Assembly: GCA_034696485.1 (NCBI GenBank)
Contig: JAQIWT010000280.1
Coordinates: 1-25,004 of the forward strand
DNA length: 25,004 bases
Source: Isohypsibius dastychi
Lineage: Eukaryota; Tardigrada; Eutardigrada; Parachela; Isohypsibiidae
Direction of reading: 5' to 3'
This document shows, piece after piece, positions 3,641-25,004 of this stretch. Position numbers and translations under genes: made by a program. The notes under the pieces were generated by a model. That model was not told the DNA's origin. It saw only the letters and a program-made list of their open reading frames with translations, and ran no database searches. Position 1 is the stretch's first letter; the number at the start of each line of letters is the position of its first letter.

Positions 3641-4240
3641 GCTTTCCTCGAAATACTGGATGCAGATATAATTAAATGAAATCCAGTTCGTAATGACAGT
3701 TTTCGAATAGCTCAAAAAAAGCAGTTGACCGGGCAAACAAGTCACCTTACTTTACAGTCCTACTACGTACACGGGCGTCATAGATATCAGCGAGACAGAT
3801 GAGACCTGGGAAGCATCCATGTAGCCTTTGTGAGATGAGACCAGATGGACTTGGAAGACTTAGGCACCATATATTTGCAACCACAATGGCATTCTTATCC
3901 AATTTTTCCTTTCGTTCTATTGAAAATAATTGTCAGCATTTCCGAATGTCTAATTTCTGCCTGTCTTTTTATTCGAACGAAAAAAGGGTGTTCCTACAGA
4001 AAATAGACGAGAAATTGGATGGAAAAACATAGGAGGCTGCACTTTTAAATGGATGGGGAAAACGGCTCATTTGAGACGGAGGTTTAAAACACAGATGTAA
4101 CTCTTTGATCATCATTCATGAAGTCAGAAGTGCGAATATAAAGCAAACAGAACAGCTTTCCAGTTGCCAGAAGTAATGGATAAAACTAAATACATACGGC
4201 ACAAGAGAACAAAAGACAAGATGCGTCAATCTTTGAACGC
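3640..4240 (-). repeat. Duplicated 3' flank of BTB-Kelch copy 1
   Basis: This block lies just downstream (in minus-strand sense) of BTB-Kelch copy 1 and is clearly similar to 21570-22176 downstream of copy 3. Shared anchors include 'ttttcgaatagct' (3703 area and 21648 area), 'caaacaagtcacc', 'cgggc.t.atagatatc', 'cagaaaatagacgagaaat' and 'gtcagaagtgcgaa'. Copy 3's block has an insertion of about 100 bp between the second and third anchors. The duplication unit therefore extended well past the stop codon. It may be 3' UTR or simply linked DNA; no coding potential is evident. Confidence 0.75.
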
Positions 4241-6360
4241 TCATTCTGCACTCTCTCGCTGAAGGAGATTGAATGAAGAAGCCAGGAGACGAACCGGTGT
4301 AAAATCCAGTTCGTGAACACCTACATCGACGGTCGTATCATGAAGTTCACCCCACACATCGCTGATATGATCATAAACCCGTGTTGCGAAATTGTTTATC
4401 GGTTTAGGCACGACAATGCACACGATCCTGTTCTCCACGCAAATGACGTTCAAAATTTCTTCAGGGCAGACGGCTGAAAAGAAGAATCTTGGGGTTCATT
4501 CCGTTCGAAACAGATGCCAAATTCAGTGACATAAATTCTCAGTTTTTTTACGAAATTCGATACTGCTCCGATATACTGATAAAGTCAGAGATCTTACCGG
4601 TTTTGCGAAATTCCAAAGTACATGTAGCTGTGTTTAAAATCCACAATTTGGTGCCGCTAAGCTCTAAAGATAAAGATTCTCAGATCGGAAGATCAAATGA
4701 ATGTTCTTACCTAAAATATATATCATCCCATCAGGCCCAACGCAACAAGTTCTTGGTTCGGACGACAACGGCAGTGAGTCAAGCTTCATCGACCAAGCTT
4801 CGGAAGAAGAGACCTTGCTGGGATCATAAGTTACATAACGTCCGTTCGAAGTGAATACATGAATCTTTCCAGCAAGTGCGGTAAGCGCAGCCCAATCGCA
4901 GTAGACGAAATCGGGAACATCGATTCGGGTGATATTCCGGAAACTCATGTCCGAACAGTCGACTTGGTACAGAAAGAGCTTACAGTTGTTATCCCATAGA
5001 GCCATGTAAACAAACTCATCAAGATACGCTGCCGAAACTAAAACAGACTTCGGTACATCAATGTACGTCAGAATGGCAACATTAAACTCACGTTCGTCAA
5101 ACTCGAATTTTCGGCGTATATTTCGAGAGCCCTCATCAATAGCGAGATGCCACATGTCACGAATTGGATCGACTGCATCCAGGATGCGTTCTCGAAACAT
5201 GTGTATGAGCTGGAGACTTGCAGCCAGCTCTGTTCAAAAAAGCTTGAATGTCTGATTTATCGCGTAAAGACACTGATCCTGTAAATCGCGCGAGGGGATC
5301 AAAGAATAATGCTCCAGTTTTCCTGTGAGATGCCACCACCTCGATTGTTCCTGAAAATAACATTCCTGAGCAAGCGATTCATTATTACTCAGAAATGATG
5401 TTTACTTGGCTGGGATTCCGACGAATCATTGACAGAGGCGGCAAACATGCGAATAACAGCAGGCGTCGATGACTCATCTCGAAACTCGTCCAGAAGATTT
5501 TTCGAGAGACAACCACCGCGGATATATTTGGTCATGGCTTCAAACTCATCAGACCTGGTTGGAGGATCAACAGAAACCCAATTGCAGAGTGATCGGAAGA
5601 GGGTATCTTCTGAGACAACGAAAAGATCGGGATCAGAGATGATATCCAACCACTGCAAAAAAGTTGAAAACCGGACTGAGGTCAGCTATTTGATCAGGAT
5701 TGATAATAAATACCCATTTTCCAGACATTTCCATCAACTCTCCGGAGCATTTAGCGAGAATGTATTCAAAATTTCTCTCGAGAAGCTTAGAAGCTTCCTC
5801 GCTCACACCAATATATCCATGGTATTCTTCTGGTGTCAGATGCCCCCACAGAATAACCGAAATGTTGCAATTCTTCATCTCGCTTCGAATCAGTGCTGAG
5901 AATCGAGTGGAGAGATTCGTCATCTGGAGAAAGTTCGCTGCTCCGATGAGGTCTGCAAGATTGCTGTGACTTCCCATTTCCACCAAACCAGTCGAAGCCA
6001 GCTCAACCAGACTAAAACATAATCGTGAACACATGCCTAAACAAAAGCCTGGAATGATTCTCACTTTTTGAAGACGTCAAGGGAAATGTCCTCAAGCTTG
6101 ATCTCAGGAGTCCAGTCCGGATTATCTCTATTCCACCGTTCCACAAATGATCGAAAGTAATCGCTGATCAGGATCAGATGGCTTTTGTTGCAAAGAACGG
6201 CATCTTCATTCTCCCCTTCACAGCGAACAATCATGAGATCTTGAAAATTCATCTTCCAGTGATCTTGGAGGATTTTCAGCGATTCCACAGCATCCATCTC
6301 AAACAACTGGATGTACGATTTCCCACCCTTCTGGATCACAAGTTTTCCAGGCCATTCCAT
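4241..6360 (-). pseudogene. BTB-BACK-Kelch protein, copy 1 (frameshifted in exon 4)
   Basis: KLHL-type proteins are substrate adaptors of Cullin-3 ubiquitin ligases: BTB binds CUL3 and dimerises, BACK orients, and the Kelch propeller binds substrate. Exons (minus): 6360-6065, 6011-5714, 5652-5406, 5350-5092, 5037-4711, 4663-4598 and 4473-4241. Exons 1-2 hold the BTB fold (FQDLMIV, CNKSHLILISDYFRSF, AANFLQM). Late exon 2 and exon 3 hold BACK (WLDIISDPDLFVVSEDTLF). Exons 4-7 hold a divergent Kelch-like half (AAYLDEFVYMALW, YVTYDPSK, CCVGPDGMIYI, LWILNTAT, RVYDHISDVW). Exon 4 is 259 nt, not a multiple of three as in copies 2 and 3 (288, 285). The shift falls between CKSPA and the other-frame MFRERILDAVDP, near 5190-5205, and the read-through stops at TGA 5159-5157 after about 344 aa. 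Downstream exons remain open to the stop at 4243-4241. It is a recent pseudogene, a truncated BTB-BACK protein, or a sequence error. Confidence 0.82.
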
Positions 6361-6512
6361 TTCACACACCGGACGAAAGATATCAATAGCAATGCAGATG
6401 AAAAAAGATCTCTTGGTCAAAATGAGAAGTGAAGAATGAAATGATTCTTGTCCTGCCTGATTGACATTGAAATGCTGGCATTTGACTGTTTGAATTTGTA
6501 CACATACGTTGG

Positions 6513-6555
6513 CCGCAAAGCCGAGAGGAAGATACCCGCTTATCCTTGGTGCACC
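6513..6555 (-). promoter_or_regulatory. Conserved upstream block of BTB-Kelch copy 1
   Basis: Plus-strand 'ccgcaaagccga' at 6513-6524 followed by 'tacccgct' and 'ccttggt' recurs upstream of copy 2 (12428 onward, with 'ccgcaaagccga', 'cccgct' and 'cccttagt'). Copy 3 keeps only the second part (24491 onward, 'tacccgct' and 'attggta'). The distance to the ATG is similar in each case (153-217 bp). It may be a regulatory element or simply residual duplication identity. Confidence 0.4.
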
Positions 6556-6778
6556 CAAAGCCTGCCAGCCAGTAATGCGAATCTACGTTGGCGTATGTGG
6601 AATCGTCTCAGTTAAATCGTCTGAGCAGCGAAATATTTTCCTTAAGCAGGAGTTTAATAAACTTACGTACACGTCCTTTCGTTAAAGGTCAAATCACCGT
6701 TCATTAATTGAGCTGGTTGGCTAATGGCTCGAAAATGGTTCAACTGTGAATCTCAACGACGTACGACAAAGTCTAGCG

Positions 6779-7517: not shown

Positions 7518-7525
7518 TTATATAA
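7518..7525 (+). promoter_or_regulatory. Candidate TATA box of the receptor-like gene
   Basis: TTATATAA sits 35-43 bp before the ATG at 7561. If it is a real TATA box, transcription would begin close to that ATG, and the alternative ATG at 7525 would overlap the box and not be used. This supports the 7561 start, which begins directly with the signal peptide. Confidence 0.4.
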
Positions 7526-7560: not shown

Positions 7561-8736
7561 ATGAATTATTATTTCACCTTGCTCTTTGTCTCATTTTTCA
7601 TTGTCCACGCAGAAGGGCAGTACAACAGACTTCCGAATGTCAAAGTTGTGACGCTCCTGGTAACTGACCGAAAATCATTCTGATGAGCCCTGTTGAAATC
7701 TATTTCTCATAGACTCCAAGGAGTCGGCTGGTTAATCGAAATGCTGATGGGACACTGGATGGATTCATCATCGAGCTCTTGAGCCTGATTGCTCCAATTG
7801 CCAGATTTCGATACACGACCGCTCTACAGCCTGATGGTGTATATGGATCACTTCGACCAAATGGAACATGGAGGGGAATTGTGGGATCACTGATTGCCGG
7901 TGTATGCTGTTCTTTACGAAAAGTTTGAGTTGTGTATTTATTGATCTGCTTTATACAGGATGCTGACATTGGCGCGATTGACCTTACCGTCACATCAGTC
8001 CGTGAACCACTTATTGACTTTACCTCTCCATTCGCCCAGAGTCCGATCCGCGTTTTGATGAACGTGGCAGATAGATTTGATTATGTTCACTTTCTGGTCA
8101 ACCGTGGAAGTCCATTTGAGCAAGTTTTACGAGTAAATATTCCATCACAAATATCAGGTTTTATCTTGAGATTTGATTTTGTTCTTGTCAATAGGGATCA
8201 ACTGCGCCTGCTGTTCAGGCTATATGGGCTGATATTGTAGCGAATGATGGGTTGGTGTCCGGAGCACGTGTAGCAGTGGATCGAGTTCTTGCTGGGGGTT
8301 ACGCATACATCGCCGATCAGATTGCTCTGCAGCCTTTTATAACGGAGAACCCTGGCAAACTTCGATATAATGGGACTTGCGATGATATCATCTCCAACAC
8401 TTATCTTGCCTTTGGAGTTCAATCAGGTGCGTTTCATCATGACATATCAGAACATTGCAAAACCTGTCTGGTGAAACCTGGTGTGTATCATGCGTTTTGT
8501 ATGTGTACCATTGAAGGCGAATTTTCGAATACGAGCCTGTGATTTTACTGTACCTTTCCTAACTCTAGCAGAAATTCTGATCCCGCACGGATCATGCTGG
8601 TAAACATTGAGAAGAATAAGATGAGAAGTGTTTCTTTGCAGGATCACCATTACGGAAACAAGTGTCAATCGCTATGTCCAAGATCAACGAATTGGGACAG
8701 CTCCAGTCTTTGCTTGCCAAATATGGATTGGTTTAA
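7561..8736 (+). CDS. Secreted ionotropic glutamate receptor-like ligand-binding protein without a channel
   Basis: Exons read as 7561-7659, 7713-7901, 7959-8132, 8195-8426 and 8642-8736; all are GT-AG, phases agree and the product is 262 aa. Residues 1-19 are a signal peptide (FTLLFVSFFIVHA). Residues 27-131 match lobe S1 of the receptor ligand-binding domain: DGFIIELLSLIAP (49-61), GVYGSLRPNGTWRGIV (75-90), DLTVTSVREPLIDFTSPF (104-121). S2 follows at once: RGSPFEQV (145-152), YAYIADQ (190-196), GSPLRKQVSIAMSKINELG (232-250). In true receptors M1, the pore loop and M3 separate S1 from S2, and M4 follows S2; here none of these exists and there is no amino-terminal domain. Retained pocket residues by alignment to GluA2: Thr106 (T480), Arg111 (R485), Ser147 (S654), Asp195 at the E705 position. 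The S1 tyrosine motif (SPYVM) is lost and Cys216 has no C-terminal partner. I infer a secreted small-molecule binding protein; the ligand is unknown. Confidence 0.85.
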
Positions 8737-10094: not shown

Positions 10095-12258
10095 TCATTC
10101 TGCGCACTTTCGGAGGATGATATTGAACGAAGACTGTAAAAATCGAACTGGTAAAAGATCCGAACCGAAAACACGCCCACCGATGGCCGTTTCCTGGGGT
10201 TCATCCCACAAGTCACGGACATGATCATAAACAAGTGTTACGATCTTTCCTGCCGACTTTGAATGAAGTTCGCATACGATCCTGTCCTCCACGGTCATCA
10301 CGTTCCAGGTCGTATCAGGGCCGGCGGCTGCAAGAAAATCTTAGGTTTCATTTGTTTACAAACTTATCGAATTTATCAATTCATCAGCGTGCAAAATATA
10401 TCTAAAGAGCTTTGGATAGGTTCGTATTTGATAAGAAATAAAGTTTAGTGAAATATCTTACCGGTGGTTCGAAATTCCGAAGTAGCCGAATTGAAGATCC
10501 AGAGTCTTTTCTCGCCAAGCACTAAACACCAAGGTTGACAGCTTGCTAATTGAATGGAATATACTATCTCACCTTGGATGTATATCATCCCATCGGGTCC
10601 AACGCAGCAACTGTCCAAGTACTTCGGAAAAGGTGTGGTATTGACGGCATACTGTACGACCAAGCCTCTGATGGACAGACGTTGGGATCATAGATGTATC
10701 GATGAGTCTTAGTGAACAGATGGATTTTTCCGCCAGTTCCAATGAGCACAGGACGACCGATGTTCCGAAGGTGGGTTGGCACATCGATGCGGATCATAGT
10801 TCTGAAAGTAGTGTCCGAACAATCGATTTTGAAAAAAAAGACTTCGTCATCGGAATATTTGAGTAAACCGATATAGATGAACCCATCAAGATATGCTGCT
10901 CCAACTAAAACAGACTTGGGTAACTCATTTCCCGTTTAAATAAAGACAGCACACTTACATTCTTCTTCCCAGAATGGTTCTCCGCGGTGTTGGGCAAAGT
11001 ATTGGGGCATCTGAACAAACCCGGAAGCCCAGATATCACGGAGTGGGTCGACTCTATCCAGAATGCGTTCCCGAAACTTGTACATTGACGCTGGAGTTCT
11101 ACAGCAAGCTTCATCCCAGAAAGCTCGAATGTCCGATTCAGCAGCAGCAGGTGACGATACTGCTCCAGTAAATCGACCCAATGGGTCAAAAAACAATGTT
11201 CTCTTATTCCCACTTCTCGATATCGCTGCCACCACCTCAATAGTTCCTGAAAAGGAAGCGATTAAGCGATTCAGTAGTTTACTAAACAGAACTCTTGTTT
11301 ACTTGGCTGAGATTCGCAGGAATCGTCAACACTGGCGACAAACATGTGAACTACAGAGGGTGTTGACGGCTCAGACCGAAATTCACTCAAGAGATCTTTT
11401 GACAAACGGCCACCACGGATGAACTTGGCCATGGCTACAAAGTCGCTAGACCTGTCTGGAGGATCAACATCAACCCAGCGGCGAATGGTCCGGAAAAGTT
11501 CATCTTCTGAGAGAACGAAGAGTTCGGGATCCGAGATGACATCCAACCACTAAAAACATTCTACTCTAACCAGATAGTTATCGGACTCAGATAACTGATA
11601 AATACCTCTTTTCCGGACATTTCCATCAGCTGCTTTGAGCATGTAGCGAGAATGTATCCAAAATTTCTCTTGACGAGTGAAGAAGCTTGCTCGCTTAAAC
11701 CAACAAATCCGTGGTACTCTTCTGACGCCAGATAGGACCACAGAATAACCGAGGGATTGAAATACACAATTTCATGTCGAATCAGGTCAGATAAGCGAGT
11801 GAAGAGATCCGTCATCTGGAGAAAGTTCGCAGCTCCGATGAGGTCCGCAAGATTGCTGTGACTCCCCATTCCCACCAAAAAACCAGTCGAAGCCAGCTCA
11901 ACCAAACTGAAAACACATTAACGTAAATACACTTCCCTATAAAAACCTTGGATGGTTCTCACTTTTTAAAAACGTCCAGTGAAATATTCTCAAGCTTGAA
12001 TTCCGGAGTCGAGTCTGGTTCACCTTTATTCCAGCGTTCCACGAAAGATCGAAAATAGGTGCTTATCTTGCTGAGATGACTTTTGTTGCAAACGATGGCA
12101 TCTTCATCCTCTCCTTTACCGCGAACAATAATCTGATCTTTCAAACTCATTTTCCAGTGTTCTTGGAAGAACTTCAGTGATTCCACAGCGTCGATCTCGA
12201 ACAACTTGAAATACGATTTCCCATCCTTCTGGATCACAAGTCTGGCAGGCCAATCCAT
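10095..12258 (-). pseudogene. BTB-BACK-Kelch protein, copy 2 (frameshifted in exon 5)
   Basis: Same family and structure as copies 1 and 3. Exons (minus): 12258-11963, 11906-11606, 11549-11303, 11246-10959, 10904-10573, 10521-10462 and 10327-10095. BTB: KMSLKDQIIV, CNKSHLSKISTYFRSFVERW. BACK: WLDVISDPELFVLSEDELF. The Kelch-like half has RYIYDPN, CCVGPDGMIYIQG, LWIFNSAT and LVYDHVRDLWDE. Exon 4 is intact (288 nt), unlike copy 1. Exon 5 is 332 nt where phase requires a multiple of three (336 and 327 in copies 3 and 1). Between the EAWS codons and the CCVGPDG codons there are 47 nt against 42 in both other copies. The open frame stops at TGA 10587-10585, giving about 483 aa without the last Kelch units. 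Exons 6-7 remain open to the stop at 10097-10095. It is a truncated protein, young pseudogene or sequence error. The N-terminal two thirds would still be expressible as BTB-BACK. Confidence 0.82.
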
Positions 12259-12427
12259 CTTCTGGGCGGATACGATAGAAACGAATGGAGTGCAGCACAG
12301 GCGAGAATGAAGAATATCTTTGCAGAAAATGGGGAAAGCAGAATGATATGGTTTTTCGTCTTGCCTGATTGAGAGCGAATGCTAGCGTTGTACTGTCCAA
12401 ACTCGTCAACATGAGCTACATGACTAT

Positions 12428-15652: not shown

Positions 15653-15883
15653 AATCATCTAAACTGATTTTAATCGAATATCTGTTCGGTTTATTTTAAA
15701 AATATTCGAGTTGACCTTTTATCTTTATTGACCGCTCAAATGATGACTCAGTTTATTTTCACAGTTTCCAAACCATCTTTTCTTATCTAGTCGTAAAATG
15801 GCCGTTAAATTTGCGGTAGTCTGAAATTCGTTTTAAAATGCTGATGTACTCCCATTTGAGGGAAAGCGCTGATTTTGATAAAC

Positions 15884-16571
15884 ATGGTGGTTTTTGTGTT
15901 CGTTGTCTCCTTATGCTTCTCATCGAGTTGGGCGAGTTCTTTGGCTTCGGATTCTAATTCTAAATCGGCAGAAAAAGAGCAGATTGATTATTTGATCCGA
16001 TCATTTACTTCGATCGAGTTTCCGGTCGGAACGCGACTTTGTGATGGACCCGAAAATTGCAATACCCATTCCCAAAGATGCGATTCAACGACGAAATTGT
16101 GTACGGGAAAAGAAGTCCCTGAATTCCCGCTTCACATTCAGAACGGTAAAATATGTCGAATTCGGTGATTTTTCGAATGACATTTCTTTATTTCAGTGAG
16201 CTGTTCCGATGATCGAGGATGTCCCTTCTTTTACAAATGTTCCTATCATCGCTGTGAATATACTTTATTCCGCGCTTGTCGAGCCAAATCAGAATGTTTC
16301 CAGAATTGCGGTTTGGAATTTGAGTGTCTGGAGCGGAATCTGGAAATGCCGGGAAAGAAGTGCTATCGAAGTGAGTGACTTTTAATAGGTTTTTGAAATA
16401 AAGCAGCGCAAGCGGGGATTTCTTCTTTTTATTGCAGAATGCCAGCGAGATCGCGATTGTTATGACTGTAATGGTGAATCATGTCGTTATCCGGATATAT
16501 TCCAGAAATTACTGACTTGCTGCAATGGCTACTGCAGTAAACGTATTGCTTGCCAAATGACCTTATCTTGA
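15884..16571 (+). CDS. Secreted cysteine-rich protein, tandem paralog 1
   Basis: Not a family I can name. Exons 15884-16145, 16197-16370 and 16438-16571 give 189 aa. The start at 15884 opens straight into a signal peptide (VVFVFVVSLCFSSSWA), followed by a polar Ser/Lys spacer and then 21 cysteines. These fall in blocks: CDGPENC..RC...LC; SCSDDRGC..KC..RC; ACRAKSEC.NCGLEFEC; KKC; KCQRDRDCYDC...SC; TCCNGYC...AC. The C-x5-C-x5-C-x4-C spacing recalls disulfide-rich EB or Dickkopf-like modules, but I cannot assign it. Exon boundaries fall between cysteine modules and are kept in the neighbouring paralog (17295-18515). It is probably an extracellular disulfide-stabilised protein; role unknown. Confidence 0.8.
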
Positions 16572-17294
16572 ATTGTGAAATTTCTTGAACCATCAGAGTA
16601 ATTGCAGTTTGTTTCTCTCTACTTTTGAAACCTAACTTTGTTCTGTTTTTTTAGAGTAATTATTGTCAACGTACTGCATTTTTGGAAAAAAGGAGGCATG
16701 ATATTCTCAAAGTCGATTTAACCTTTGGTCATCATAAAACATGAGGAAAAACTGCTTTTTTCTGCCCGTTTTTTATGTTGTCAAAGCAAAGTTCATAACC
16801 ATACCATAACAATTGAATCGTTACTTAATTTGATTTTGATAGTTTCGTTTTTCGTCTTGATCTTGGATTTGTCGAACATTTTTTTATGTGATATGAAAGT
16901 GGGTCGCATCTCGCATTTCTTAGACTAGCGAGCTATTTTTAATTTTATTTCGCATCGTGAAAGAATCGAGGTTAGATGGGTAATTTTAGAAACGAACAAA
17001 CTTTGAGCAAAAAACGACAACATCACTTTTCGGAACAGCCGATTTTGAAAAAGTTTCCTTGAATTCATCTGCGCACACGGCCAAGTCACGCTGCTTAATT
17101 AACTTAAGCAGCACCGGAAATGATTCAACTTGCCACTTTGAAACTCATGAGATGCAATCACCTTTTGTTCCCATGATTCATCATTCAAACACTCGACATT
17201 TAATTTCTTTCCAAAAATCCCTTCTTTCTCATCGTCATTTTTGCATGAACCATTCACTTCCGGATTAGAGTTTGTATTATTGCAATTATTTCAA
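16572..17294. other. Intergenic region between the Cys-rich paralogs
   Basis: AT-rich spacer of about 720 bp carrying the downstream flank of paralog 1 and upstream region of paralog 2. ORFs at 16725-16928 and 17059-17268 show no recognisable features. Confidence 0.5.
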
Positions 17295-18515
17295 ATGCAT
17301 CCTCGCACATCGGCTTTGTTGTCATTTATCGTTTGTTTATTTGGAGTGACCTTTGCTCAGCAGCACCTCGATGTCACATTGGGTCAGTCATTCGCGATCA
17401 AACGAAGTCCAATTTACAAGCGATTATTATTTTCGAACTGTCTGTTTTTCTGCTCATTTTTTGAATTTTTCGCAGAAACTGCTGATAATCTCCAGAAAAA
17501 CGGGAATAATGTGAGCGATTCAAACGGTAATGGACATGAAGATCACTGGAGTTCCTTAACGGCGGATCAACAGCAATATATTCTCTATGCATATTTTGCC
17601 TCAAATGTCCCATCGGATATTCAATTTTGTGATCGAGCGGAAGAATGTCCCAGTACGACAAGATGTGATGAAACCTGGAAACTCTGTGCGCCGAAGGAAT
17701 CTCCGCATTTCCCAAAAACAGGTGAATGAACATACAAACAATTATTACAGCAAACTTCGCAGCATCAGTATCTCTGAAATATGTGTTTTTAATGAGAAAA
17801 GGGACTGAACCAAAAGTAAGATGATCGAAGAAACATAAATTCCATATTTCGTAGAATACTTCCGATGAAAATTCCGAATGGAATTTTGCGTGCTCTAACA
17901 GATAGTTTCAAGTCTGGAAATATTCGTTAAAATTATTTTGATAGCTAAGATAGCTTTGATTTAAAACTTTCATTGATAACAAATATACATTATAATTTAC
18001 AATTTAGGTTTTGTCACAACCTTGTGGTTGAAAGCTCCAACTTATGATCTCGAATGTAACCACTTTTGATTTCATTAAAGCTTGTTTTTTGAAGATGGAT
18101 TCTGTGGTAAAGATTCGGATTGCAAGCCCATGTACCGTTGCGGAAACAACAAATGCCATCTAACCGGACCGCTGGCCTGCAAATCCCAAAGTGACTGTCT
18201 AGTTATTCCCGGACTAGAATTCACTTGCGTAGAACGTCCCCAGCAAGTCCCCGGGAAACGGTGTTGGAGAAGTCAGTTTTGTCCTAACCACTCTTGTTCG
18301 TTTCTGTATTTGTTGTTATTATTATAGAATGTTCGATAACCCGAGACTGTCTGGAATGCGATCAGGCGGCGAGTGCGGAAAGTGGGACAACGACATCCTC
18401 GTCTTCTTCGTCATCAAGTGATGATTTATCAGCTTGCAGAATACCCCAACCGTTTATACATACTCTTATCTGTCAGGATCACTTCTGCTCTAAAAATCAA
18501 ACCGCAATTGTGTAG
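17295..18515 (+). CDS. Secreted cysteine-rich protein, tandem paralog 2
   Basis: Paralog of the gene at 15884-16571. Exons read as 17295-17382, 17476-17721, 18095-18271 and 18328-18515, giving 232 aa. Signal peptide: SALLSFIVCLFGVTFAQQ. An N-terminal intron (17383-17475, 93 nt, GT-AG) has no stop and is a multiple of three, so a retained-intron form would also be open; its T-rich end and acceptor 'tcgcag' argue that it is spliced. Shared modules: FCDRAEECPSTTRC; FCGKDSDCKPMYRC; LACKSQSDC...GLEFTC; VPGKRCWR; KCSITRDCLEC. It has 18 conserved-type cysteines; relative to paralog 1 it lacks one in the GLEF module and two near the C-terminus. A Ser/Thr-rich insert (SGTTTSSSSSSSSDD) separates the last module. 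Intron 2 is 373 nt with the unusual acceptor 'tttgaag', the weakest junction. Function unknown; extracellular location inferred. Confidence 0.75.
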
Positions 18516-19842: not shown

Positions 19843-20473
19843 TCTTTGTGGATGAATAGGATCACGATGCACAGCATCACATTTCAAGGTTTGGGTCGTT
19901 TTGACGCCATTTCAAATACTAACAGATTACCAGAAAGTACCTGCAAGCTAGCCACCATAGAACTGACACAGGGGCCGTCCGTTAAGATAACCAGTATTTT
20001 TCCTCTTCGGTTCATGAGTCAAGCTCAAGTTTCCACCATGGAATATTACAGTTCTTACTGATTTTTGTGGACGAATCCGACGAACGAAAGAGTTTTTATG
20101 GACAACTAGAAAACTGCTCGTGACTGGTAATTTGATCGATATGTGGTGTTTCGTCTCAGTGAGGGCACTGGCCATCACGTTATTTAGAAGCATTGTCTTT
20201 TATGAAGGAGATTCAGACAGCTATCTTGACGAGGCATTCAAGTCACGTGCACGTGTTAATCTGCGAGATCTCAAAAGGAGCTAACTCGCAGGTTTTTTTC
20301 TGTTACGTTTCTGATCATCTGATACTCTGTCTGAGTGGGTTGCTGAACATACAAATATTCTGTCACTTACTCGCGACCTTTGAACAGTTGTTTTGGTTAT
20401 CGTTGCGTGCAATCAGCACAAAAAAGCTGCGATGGCTGTATTAAGACCAATTTGATATTCAAGAATCTGCCGT

Positions 20474-20484
20474 GCATATATTTC
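20474..20484 (+). promoter_or_regulatory. Candidate TATA box of the mucin-like gene
   Basis: The 'gcatatattt' stretch lies 20-31 bp before the ATG at 20505. Placement fits a TATA box only if the 5' leader is very short, so support is weak. Confidence 0.25.
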
Positions 20485-20504
20485 GAATTCAAGTGTCACG
20501 CACA

Positions 20505-21167
20505 ATGATGGACATTCTTGTGCTAATATTTTGCACCATCTGCCCTCTTCTGCTTGGCTCTGTGGTCATGCAAGAAGATTTCACTCCAAATTCCGTCAGG
20601 ATCCCACCTTCAGGACGACGACGCACTACTACTACGGATGCTGCCCTCGCGAGTCGCGATAACTTTAGTACGATCCTTGTTACTTCTGACGATTCAGTAA
20701 ACACCGAACTGACTACTTCTCCACTAACAACTGCCTCGGAATTCACATCAAGTTCGTCCATAATAACAACATCAGTGCTTCAAGTTGTGCCCTCTCAGAA
20801 CACAGGCACACCAGATGTCCTTGACTCGCAAGACGGATCAAATGGCTCAACATCACTTCTAGCACCTATTCAGAACGCTACAACCCCACAACATCTCGGA
20901 CAATCTACCGATTCGTTTTCAGTGCAGTCTATTACTAGCAGCAGTACCACCGTTGTGACAACTACTACGTCAACACTGTCTTTGGCCAGCTCCGACGTTA
21001 ATCCAGGACAAGAAACTTCTTCAGCTCCGAAGATCAGGGCTCCTCTGTCATATGAGCCCGTCAACTGGTGGAGTGGAGCAATCATCACTTTGATTGTATC
21101 TACGATACTTGTGGCAATCACAGCAGTGGTCGTGATTGTCAGGTTAGAGATCGAAATACAGCTTTGA
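20505..21167 (+). CDS. Mucin-like single-pass membrane protein
   Basis: Single-exon ORF of 220 aa from ATG 20505 (a second ATG follows at once at 20508). I chose this start because it opens into a signal peptide (DILVLIFCTICPLLLGSVV). Residues of about 25-185 form a low-complexity Ser/Thr-rich ectodomain with TTTT, SSSS and TSSSTT runs. It has three N-glycosylation sequons (NFS, NGS, NAT), and as a mucin-like stalk would carry dense O-glycans. After the juxtamembrane motif EPVNWWS comes one transmembrane helix (about 191-212, AIITLIVSTILVAITAVVV) and an 8-residue tail (RLEIEIQL). Topology is type I. No adhesive or enzymatic domain is visible. A donor-like GT at the RLEI codons and an acceptor 'tgttttag' near 21200 would give a slightly different short tail. 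No homolog recognised. Confidence 0.65.
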   Translation: MMDILVLIFCTICPLLLGSVVMQEDFTPNSVRIPPSGRRRTTTTDAALASRDNFSTILVTSDDSVNTELTTSPLTTASEFTSSSSIITTSVLQVVPSQNTGTPDVLDSQDGSNGSTSLLAPIQNATTPQHLGQSTDSFSVQSITSSSTTVVTTTTSTLSLASSDVNPGQETSSAPKIRAPLSYEPVNWWSGAIITLIVSTILVAITAVVVIVRLEIEIQL

Positions 21168-22176: not shown

Positions 22177-24312
22177 TCACGGCAGGAGATTGAATGAAGA
22201 AGTCAGGAAACGAACTGGCGTAAAATCCATCCTGGGACCACACGCACTGACAGTCGTATCGACGGGTTCTGCCCACAAATCGGCGATATGATCATAAACC
22301 CGGGTAGCGAAATTGTTTCTCAGTTCCGGCTCGACGATGCACACTATCTTGTTCTCCAGGCACATGACGTTCGAGATTTTATCGGGGCAGATGGCTGAAA
22401 AGAAGAATCTCGGATATCATTCCGTTCATATGTATCAAGTCCAATCACTTGCAAAAAATCTCAGTCCTCACATGTGATTTGAATAAGGACAGATTTCGTG
22501 ATGACAACGGAGATCTTACCGGTGCTGCGACACTCCAAAGTAGCTGCATTGAGAACCCACAGTTTGGTGTCGCTGTACTCTAAACACAAAGGTCCGCAGC
22601 TTGTCAATTTATGAGAATAAGCTTACCTTGAATATATATCATCCCATCAGGCCCAACGCAACAAGTTTGCGCCCCGTTCTTGAGATCTGGTGTTTCCGAG
22701 GCATCCGACCAAGCTTCGGAAGGACAATCCTTGCTGGGATCATATGTTACATATCCGTCCGAAGCGAATAAATGGATCTTTCCAGCAAATCCGGTCAGCA
22801 CATCCCAAGGATAGTTGCAGAGGAAATCGGGCATTTCAATCCTCCTGATATTCCGGAAGGCAGTGTCCGAACAATCGACTTTGTAGAAACGGACCGTGCC
22901 CCAACTGCCATCGTTTTGCCATAAAGTCATGTAAACGAACCCATCAAGATACGCAGCTGAAACTAAACCAGACTTCGGTACATCGTCACCGTATTCGCTG
23001 GAATGAAAACACAAAACTTACGTTCAAGAAAATCAAATGGTTTTCCACATCGAGGATCTGTACTCTTACGTCCTGCGGGGCACCAGATATCCCGAATCGG
23101 GTCAACAGCATCCAGAGTGCGTTCTCGAAACATGTTCATAATATTTACTGGTGACTTGCAGCAAGCTTCACCCCAAAACGCTTGAATGCTGGTTTTCTCC
23201 GGTAGGGATATTGATCCAGTAAATCGGGCGAATGGATCATGGAATAACGTCAAATGATTCCCATCCTTTCCAGCTTCTGTCCTGCATGCCAACACTTCGA
23301 CTCCTCCTAAAAAATCACGCATTTAACCAATTCTTTTATACTCAGAAAATAATATTTACGGAGCTGAGATTCCGATAAATCGTTGATAGAGGCGGCAAAC
23401 ATGCGAATAACAGCAGGCTTTGATAATTCATCCCGACATTCATTCAGAACTTTGTTCGACAGACAGCCACCGCGGATATACTTGGAAATAGCCTCAAAGT
23501 CATCGGACCTGATTAAAGGATCAACAGAAACCCAGTGGCAAATTGTTCGGAAAAGAGCATCTTCTGAGACGAGGAAGAGATCCGGATCCGAGATGATATC
23601 CAACCACTACAAGCGCTGATTAGATGAGCTGTTTCAACAAAGAAAATTAACAATTACCTGACTTCCGGTCAGATCCATCAATTCTTCGGACCATTTTGCC
23701 AGAACATATTCAAAGTTCCTCTTGACCAGTTTAGAAGCTTCCTCGCTCACACCAATACATCCATGGGACTCCTCTGGCGTCAGATAGCTCCACAGAATCA
23801 CAGGAATATTATTATGCTTCATCTCAACTCGAATCAATTCAGCAAATCGAGTGGAGAGTTTCGCCATTTGAAGAAAGTTCGCTGCCACAACGAGATTCCC
23901 AAGACTGCTGTGACTCCCGATTTCCAGCAAACCAGTCGAACCAAGCTCTACCAAACTAAAAACATGAAGATGAACACAGTTCTTCACCAAAACAAGAATG
24001 TAATCAGTCTCACTTTTTGAAGACGCCAAGGGAGATTTCAGGCTCCAGCTTGATTTCAGGAGTCGTATCCGAGCCATCTTTATTCCACCGTTCAACGAAC
24101 GACCGAAGGTATGAGCTGATCTGGATAAGATGGCTCTTGTTGCAAACAATGGCATCTTCATTTTCCCCATGACCGCGAATAATAATCTGATCTTCCAGAC
24201 TCATCTTCCAGTGTTCTTGGAAGAAATCCAAAGAGTCAACGGCGTCGATCTCAAAGAGCTTGACGTACGACTTTCCGCGTCTTTGGATCACAAGTCTGGC
24301 AGGCCAGTCCAT
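22177..24312 (-). CDS. BTB-BACK-Kelch protein, copy 3 (intact)
   Basis: Exons (minus): 24312-24014, 23955-23658, 23606-23360, 23306-23022, 22962-22627, 22579-22520 and 22394-22177; all are GT-AG and phases agree for 580 aa, the usual KLHL size. Start MDWPARLVIQ aligns with the other copies. BTB, residues about 25-135: KMSLEDQIII, CNKSHLIQISSYLRSF, ANFLQMAKL. BACK, about 140-275: SHGCIGVSEEASKLVKRNF, WLDIISDPDLFLVSEDALF. Kelch-like half, about 280-575: ARFTGSISL, AAYLDGFVYMTLW, YVTYDPSKDCPSEAWS, CCVGPDGMIYIQG (about 475-488), LWVLNAAT, RVYDHIADLWAE. Kelch motifs are degenerate, without clear GG doublets. The stop (TGA 22191-22189 region) ends the protein at FNLLP, four residues before copies 1 and 2, whose endings read RESAE and RKCAE. 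By family it should act as a Cullin-3 adaptor in the cytosol; substrate unknown. Confidence 0.87.
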
Positions 24313-24490
24313 TTTACAGGTAGAGGTTGGAGGTAAACGATGTGAATTCAGATGAAAAAAGGAATCTCTTGTGCGAACTGGAAAAAGTGAAGTGTAGTTG
24401 TTTTTCTCGTTTCGCCTGATTGAGGGTGGGATACAATTTAAAATGGACGTACTTCTCGGCCATGGGTCACCCGCGATGTCAGGTGAGGGA

Positions 24491-24515
24491 TACCCGCTCA
24501 CAATTGGTACAAGGG
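24491..24515 (-). promoter_or_regulatory. Partly conserved upstream block of BTB-Kelch copy 3
   Basis: 'tacccgct' followed by 'attggta' (plus-strand sense) matches the block upstream of copy 1 at 6533-6551 at a similar distance from the ATG (179-203 bp). The 12-mer ccgcaaagccga is not retained here. Confidence 0.35.
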
Positions 24516-25004
24516 GACATCCGCCGGGGGGGGGGGGGGAGGGTGGGGTAGGCCGGAGACATAGAAAAGTCAAATTAAATGCGAGGATTGACTTACAAAA
24601 AAATTAAATCCTTCATTTTTCTGAGCATGATGGACTTTGGCTGCCGAGAGCAACAACGCTGATATTTCATTATTATTTGAGATTTATGAATTATTGTTAT
24701 TTTCATTCACCGCGGTCATAAAATTTAACCGCAGCAGTAGATCGGCGGTAATGGCTTTTTCGGAACCCGCTCAAGCTATTTCAGGAATTATTCTGGTTTA
24801 TGGAGGCCTTTCATTCTGTTTCCTGCCATTGCCATATGGTGTCTCTTTGCCTCTTGGAGAACAAAGAAGAAATGCTCTTTGCTCTTGAAATAGAATTATT
24901 TTGAAAATTGGAGTGGACTATAGAAACTTCCTATGAATAGCGTGTCTCGAACTTCGAATCATCATCCGCTGCAAAAAGCGGGGGGGGGGGGGGGGGGGGG
25001 GTGC
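24516..25004. other. Window edge: G-runs and an unassigned hydrophobic ORF
   Basis: A G14 run occupies 24526-24539 and a G22 run 24980-25001, three bases from the window end. A plus-strand ORF with an ATG at 24751 (to 24888) encodes about 45 residues with a hydrophobic stretch (AISGIILVYGGLSFCFLPL). I do not recognise it and see no supporting splice partner, so it stays uncalled. Confidence 0.5.

Follow-up and report, generated by a model that had tools for sequence, protein, structure and literature searches.

The gene at positions 7561–8736 of the window, a 25,004-nt stretch of contig JAQIWT010000280.1 (C280) from the tardigrade Isohypsibius dastychi, raises the question of whether the ligand-binding domain (LBD) of an ionotropic glutamate receptor can exist in an animal as a natural protein without the channel. 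A first-pass annotation, made from the sequence alone, had read five exons here that join in phase to 262 residues, and rebuilding the gene from the sequence gave the same structure: five exons on the + strand, separated by GT-AG introns of 53, 57, 62 and 215 bases with phases 0, 0, 0 and 1, and a coding length of 789 bases including the stop. In the product, a signal-peptide-like hydrophobic start is followed by S1, then by S2 and, directly after S2, by the stop. Exon 1 (7561..7659), which was set by its hydrophobic start and by splice phase, carries the ATG, the hydrophobic N-terminus MNYYFTLLFVSFFIVHAEGQ and the start of S1. Exon 2 (7713..7901) encodes the first part of the S1 lobe, to LIAG; exon 3 (7959..8132) encodes the end of S1 joined directly to the start of S2; exon 4 (8195..8426) encodes the S2 lobe; and exon 5 (8642..8736) encodes the end of S2 and the TAA stop, with no M4 or C-terminal hydrophobic tail, as in the related gene models described below. 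Judged by hydropathy rather than by a signal-peptide program, the window protein has a start that resembles a signal peptide and no other strongly hydrophobic stretch, and it would probably be exported from the cell. A TATATAA box about 40 bases 5' of the ATG (7519..7525, + strand) is a possible but weak core promoter, recognized by sequence pattern only.

A check against the ligand-binding profiles PF10613 and PF00060 had been proposed. A Pfam scan of the window protein matched Lig_chan-Glu_bd (PF10613; 87.4 bits, E 9.5e-25), beginning at residue 45 in exon 2, and SBP_bac_3 (PF00497; 37.9 bits, residues 43–260); a third match, to LVIVD at E 0.19, fell under its cut-off. PF00060, which represents the pore, was found in the window's own eukaryote assembly (G000; 30.4 Mb, 1648 contigs) at four places on only two contigs, C807 and C247. 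A phmmer search of PDB sequences was headed by the LBDs of GluK4 and GluK1, the best match being GluK4 (E 1.5e-20, residues 45–258). When a profile was built from 12 members of the family to which the gene belongs, it aligned with almost the entire GluK1 S1S2 construct (3e-43, 151 bits), except that the beginning of S2 is shorter by about nine residues in the family, and the best 60 of 414 PDB matches were all glutamate receptors, the delta-2 receptor or Drosophila CG3822. By these comparisons, the similarity to the LBD of glutamate receptors of the kainate/AMPA/delta class is far beyond chance. PF10613 and SBP_bac_3 each match all 12 aligned members, and only these two profiles matched above cut-off, so that no Cys-loop receptor LBD is present in the family.

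Soluble S1S2 constructs, in which the pore is removed and S1 is tied to S2 by a short linker, are a familiar engineering design. The likeness to them that had been remarked on in the window protein extends to the GluK1 construct match given above and to the length class (LBD entries in the PDB, for example 1txf, have about 258 residues). Unlike these constructs, the window protein belongs to a natural, germline, multi-gene family with signal-peptide-like starts.

In order to define how S1 meets S2, the junction was mapped to codons. IRVLMN ends at codon 131 (8061–8063) and RGSPFEQV begins at codon 145 (8103–8105), which leaves 13 residues between N131 and R145 (8061..8105, + strand), all of them inside exon 3; the pore module M1-P-M3 is absent. 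Since S1 and S2 lie 13 residues apart within a single exon, splicing cannot hide a pore there, and the in-exon fusion described by the first-pass annotation stands. The mature chain has no transmembrane segment, its maximum 19-residue hydropathy being 1.44, compared with 2.26 (M1-pore-M3) and 2.66 (M4) in the channel receptor encoded on C807. M4 is likewise absent: the stop codon immediately follows S2, and the 1.5 kb of coding strand beyond it contain no hydrophobic stretch. In a span of 2574 bases that starts where exon 1 ends and runs 1.5 kb beyond the gene, no stop-free stretch on the coding strand reached a hydropathy of 1.9 or more. Hydrophobic stretches do occur in minus-strand frames near the gene, but the coding-strand frames contain none, and the membrane-spanning exon that had been named in advance as fatal to the channel-less reading was therefore not found on that strand, in the gene or after it, by hydropathy scanning. 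The claimed lack of an amino-terminal domain (ATD), which most receptors have, also held, with no match to PF01094 (ANF_receptor) on C280. Genome-wide, this profile gave 40 exon matches on 31 contigs, none of them among the eight contigs that carry the soluble family, which suggests many receptors with that domain beyond the glutamate receptors. Marker searches of the genome gave no match to Col_cuticle_N, SL1, Chitin_bind_4, COX1 or 5.8S rRNA; the first three, which matched no control genome either, speak weakly against a nematode and an arthropod.

To count relatives of the gene, the genome was searched with PF10613, which matched 26 exon places, and with one family protein as query, which at an E limit of 0.1 gave 55 exon places, including the channel receptors on C807 and C955. 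By eye, C955 also looks like a membrane receptor, though the PF00060 search missed it; the absence of PF00060 alone is therefore no proof of a missing pore. Three loci in all read as channel receptors (C807, C955 and C247, the last truncated where its contig ends). In a splice-aware alignment run on 18 stretches, with S1+S2 models counted if longer than 200 residues, there were 13 models on eight contigs: the window gene, C344, C512 (two), C978 (four), C485 (two), C581, C361 and C33. All 13 lack a pore between S1 and S2, in line with the channel-less reading of the window gene. Five further loci are partial, one more on C978 and one each on C725, C363, C917 and C1071. Because its model is ragged, C33 was omitted from the alignment and from later counts, leaving 12 members. 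A methionine with a hydrophobic start is present in 10 of the 13 models, the window gene included, and the first exon was not found for C581, C361 and C33. The junction exon is 174 bases long in 10 of 12 members and was modelled at 184 in C978c and 154 in C361. On C978 (L015, L016), which is 13.3 kb long, the five family loci, one of them partial, are distributed over both strands. The signal-peptide region of C512a (L013, near 3087–2977) contains an internal repeat, with CAFAGLFF occurring twice.

These models bear on whether the window gene is instead a membrane receptor whose pore or M4 comes from alternative exons or was lost from the assembly. The contigs are short, and 8 of the 13 gene spans scanned hold a coding-strand stop-free stretch of at least 1.9, located in an intron, downstream or, for C978c, in S2. 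The C978c stretch, VVAGGFALVADLITLLPIV, reaches 2.24, close to the 2.26 of the C807 membrane segment, and counts against the soluble reading; in the other 11 of 12 members the mature-chain maximum is 1.22–1.81. Against a mis-modelled receptor, the window span itself has no such stretch, the join of S1 to S2 falls within an exon both in the window gene and in the modelled paralogs, and all 13 models end 0–4 residues from the end of S2. We regard a hidden pore or M4 as highly improbable.

Decay of former receptors into pseudogenes would also leave genes without channels. Ragged models (C33 and C725) and the five partial loci are what such remnants would look like, but none of the 13 S1+S2 models has an internal stop (a mild test, as the aligner penalizes stops), and the substitution pattern points the other way. 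The window gene and C344, 88% identical, gave a dN/dS of 0.11 by NG86 and 0.14 by YN00, at dS values of 0.67 and 0.54, respectively. Eight pairs were tried, of which three gave NG86 ratios (0.11–0.19) and three gave YN00 ratios (0.14–0.27), the rest having no usable dS. Wherever a ratio was obtained, it indicates purifying selection. With the pocket arginine conserved as well, we consider it improbable in the extreme that these genes are decaying remnants.

The phase-1 intron 4 (8427..8641, + strand) lies before SPLRKQ in the window gene; the channel receptor gene on C807 has an intron, before SPYRDE, that agrees with it in position and phase. By a rough count, the chance of such a coincidence is about 0.6% for one given intron. 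This one intron, held in common with a channel receptor, supports descent from a receptor, and together with the profile match to GluK1 it favours descent from an animal receptor over gain from bacteria. A bacterial periplasmic amino-acid-binding protein that arrived by horizontal transfer and gained its introns later would account for the SBP_bac_3 match in every aligned member and for the periplasmic-binding-protein layout, and it is compatible with the tree, which is unrooted. However, the profile match to an animal receptor LBD, at 151 bits, stands against 37 bits for the one bacterial binding protein found; a search of the genome_contigs prokaryote collection with one peptide pattern found no relative; and the C807 intron also argues against transfer, which we judge very unlikely. 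The proposed return to a periplasmic-binding-protein layout thus stands as far as the layout goes: the family resembles bacterial family 3 solute-binding proteins (PF00497) in its soluble, bilobed form and its matches to their profile. It does not extend to kinship, as the nearest relatives of the family are glutamate receptors and its sequence is much nearer to animal receptors than to bacterial proteins.

In a 16-row tree, rooted only at its midpoint and containing two long bacterial rows, all 12 soluble members lie to the same side of a branch whose support is 66/91 and which occurs in 67% of bootstrap trees. This lends weak support to a single origin of the soluble family. The loss of the receptor parts most likely preceded the multiplication that produced at least 13 copies.

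Beyond the genome, when the single sequence was compared with a protein database, none of 1722 candidates reached 1e-3. A search with the family profile gave at least four matches among 7998 candidates scored, three of them pore-bearing proteins (P0001–P0003) and the fourth a bacterial binding protein (P0004); candidates were 0.55–1.75 times the query length, so that full-length receptors could not appear. The sole match to the junction exon (P0005) is an S1 piece about equally close to channel receptors and to the family, and was set aside as it ends differently from the family junction. Viral contigs searched with the profile gave no match; an IMG/VR contig (L028) that was picked up by a degenerate DNA pattern was attributed to chance (tblastn E 0.036). 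NCBIfam contains no model that matches the family. Among the titles and opening lines of abstracts listed, few of them from subscription journals, no report of a natural channel-less ionotropic glutamate receptor LBD family was seen, and none is mentioned in the accessible parts of three papers that name PF10613 or survey C. elegans secreted proteins (PMC7738191, PMC3534327, PMC5335605). Relatives may have been left unremarked in annotated genomes.

We compared the pocket of the family with that of channel receptors, taking the roles of residues from GluA2 and GluN1: Arg485 holds the ligand's alpha-carboxylate, the acid at 705 its alpha-amine, and Thr655 reads the side-chain carboxylate of glutamate. 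The Arg485 equivalent, Arg111 in the window protein (8001..8003, + strand), is arginine in 12 of 12 members. An acid occupies position 705 in 10 of 12, with aspartate in nine, including Asp195 of the window protein (8315–8317, GluA2 Glu705), and glutamate in C581; the exceptions are alanine in C512a and histidine in C361. Thr480 is threonine in 7 of 12 and serine in 2 of 12, with glycine in C361, and at the Pro478 position 11 of 12 members have aspartate, C361 having a gap there. Position 450, covered in 10 members, is aromatic in four and leucine in six. Thr655 is retained only in C512a (1 of 12) and is phenylalanine in seven members including the window protein, which, like C344, also has proline at the Ser654 position. 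The aligned S2 cysteine of receptors is found in 0 of 12 members; in six, a different cysteine lies close by (NGTC; in the window protein, C216). C361 and C512a are outlying copies with varied pocket residues, while the window protein and C344 are identical at the eight pocket positions compared.

On this alignment, the putative carboxylate anchor is fixed, the putative amine anchor is mostly kept and the presumed contact to the glutamate side chain is mostly lost. With arginine in all members, an acid in 10 of 12 and phenylalanine for Thr655 in 7 of 12, a small amino acid is therefore likelier as ligand than glutamate. GluN1, whose ligand is glycine, has valine at the Thr655 position. The likeliest ligand would be a small neutral alpha-amino acid such as glycine, serine or alanine, and the Pro-Phe pair of the window protein could instead select another ligand, perhaps one that is no amino acid.

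These data best support the reading that the gene encodes a secreted S1S2 protein without a channel. We think it quite probable that the family consists of soluble amino-acid binders derived from an animal ionotropic glutamate receptor gene that lost its ATD, M1-P-M3 and M4. The product would be a bilobed (Venus-flytrap) protein in which a short linker connects S1 and S2. From this anatomy we infer secretion, the ligand class and the physiological role: the protein would bind a small alpha-amino acid outside cells, and its most likely function would be to buffer, carry or scavenge it. Receptor LBDs are generally traced to soluble binding proteins; if our reading is true, the family took that step backwards within an animal and supplies S1S2 proteins of natural origin. 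A fixed carboxylate anchor combined with a varied side-chain pocket would also make the family suitable for the study of ligand choice.

The closest parallel is the molluscan acetylcholine-binding protein (Smit 2001, as cited in PMC7789530). It is a pentamer and in the snail Lymnaea acts on acetylcholine. As proposed for the window protein, it is a secreted LBD of a neurotransmitter-gated channel that has no channel; unlike the window protein, it has the fold of another superfamily (Cys-loop), so that the window family may be called its glutamate-receptor counterpart by analogy only. The accessible part of PMC7789530 treats acetylcholine-binding protein as a known Lymnaea protein. It is somewhat likelier than an even chance that a receptor gave rise, in an independent invention of this kind, to multiple secreted amino-acid binders, the copies differing in their ligands and serving in synaptic buffering or chemosensation. 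The family would make testable the idea that soluble, receptor-derived proteins buffer extracellular amino-acid transmitters, as happens with acetylcholine in snails.

Alternatively, the copies could be chemosensory carriers like odorant-binding proteins, each secreted into sensory lymph and each binding its own environmental molecule. The family has many divergent copies, some clustered (the five loci on C978, and two each on C512 and C485), and positions 450, 654, 655 and 705 differ among copies around the fixed Arg485, as such carriers might; the identity of the window and C344 pockets speaks against it. Variant ionotropic receptors (IRs) are similar in being a receptor-derived family with many divergent copies and possible chemosensory use, according to the accessible parts of PMC12087990 and PMC5335605. 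The first-pass annotation took the pore always to interrupt S1 and S2 in animal ionotropic receptors; the latter paper gives PF10613 (S1) followed by the channel domain PF00060 as the arrangement in most IRs, and the window family lacks PF00060. We hold chemosensory carriage to be possible but on balance doubtful; the evidence does not separate it from the buffer or scavenger role that we prefer.

Other genes were noted elsewhere in the window. Three repeated clusters of related BTB/kelch-like genes, recognized by eye, lie on the minus strand (4116–6582, 10095–12381 and 22177–24603); the four of their open reading frames (ORFs) that were scanned gave no Pfam match over cut-off, one of these four matching GST_C_8 at E 0.067. 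A Ser/Thr-rich ORF on the + strand (20445–21167) with a hydrophobic segment near its end looks mucin-like by eye; no Pfam profile matched it at E 0.1 or below. Also on the + strand are two cysteine-rich, secreted-looking genes (15860–16571 and 17151–18421) with a repeated cysteine spacing seen by eye, one ORF of which matched DUF7107 below cut-off, and the exons of an IMP dehydrogenase gene (448–2933), for which the ORF at 2520–2933 matched Pfam IMPDH at 1.5e-30 and the upstream exons were assigned by eye.
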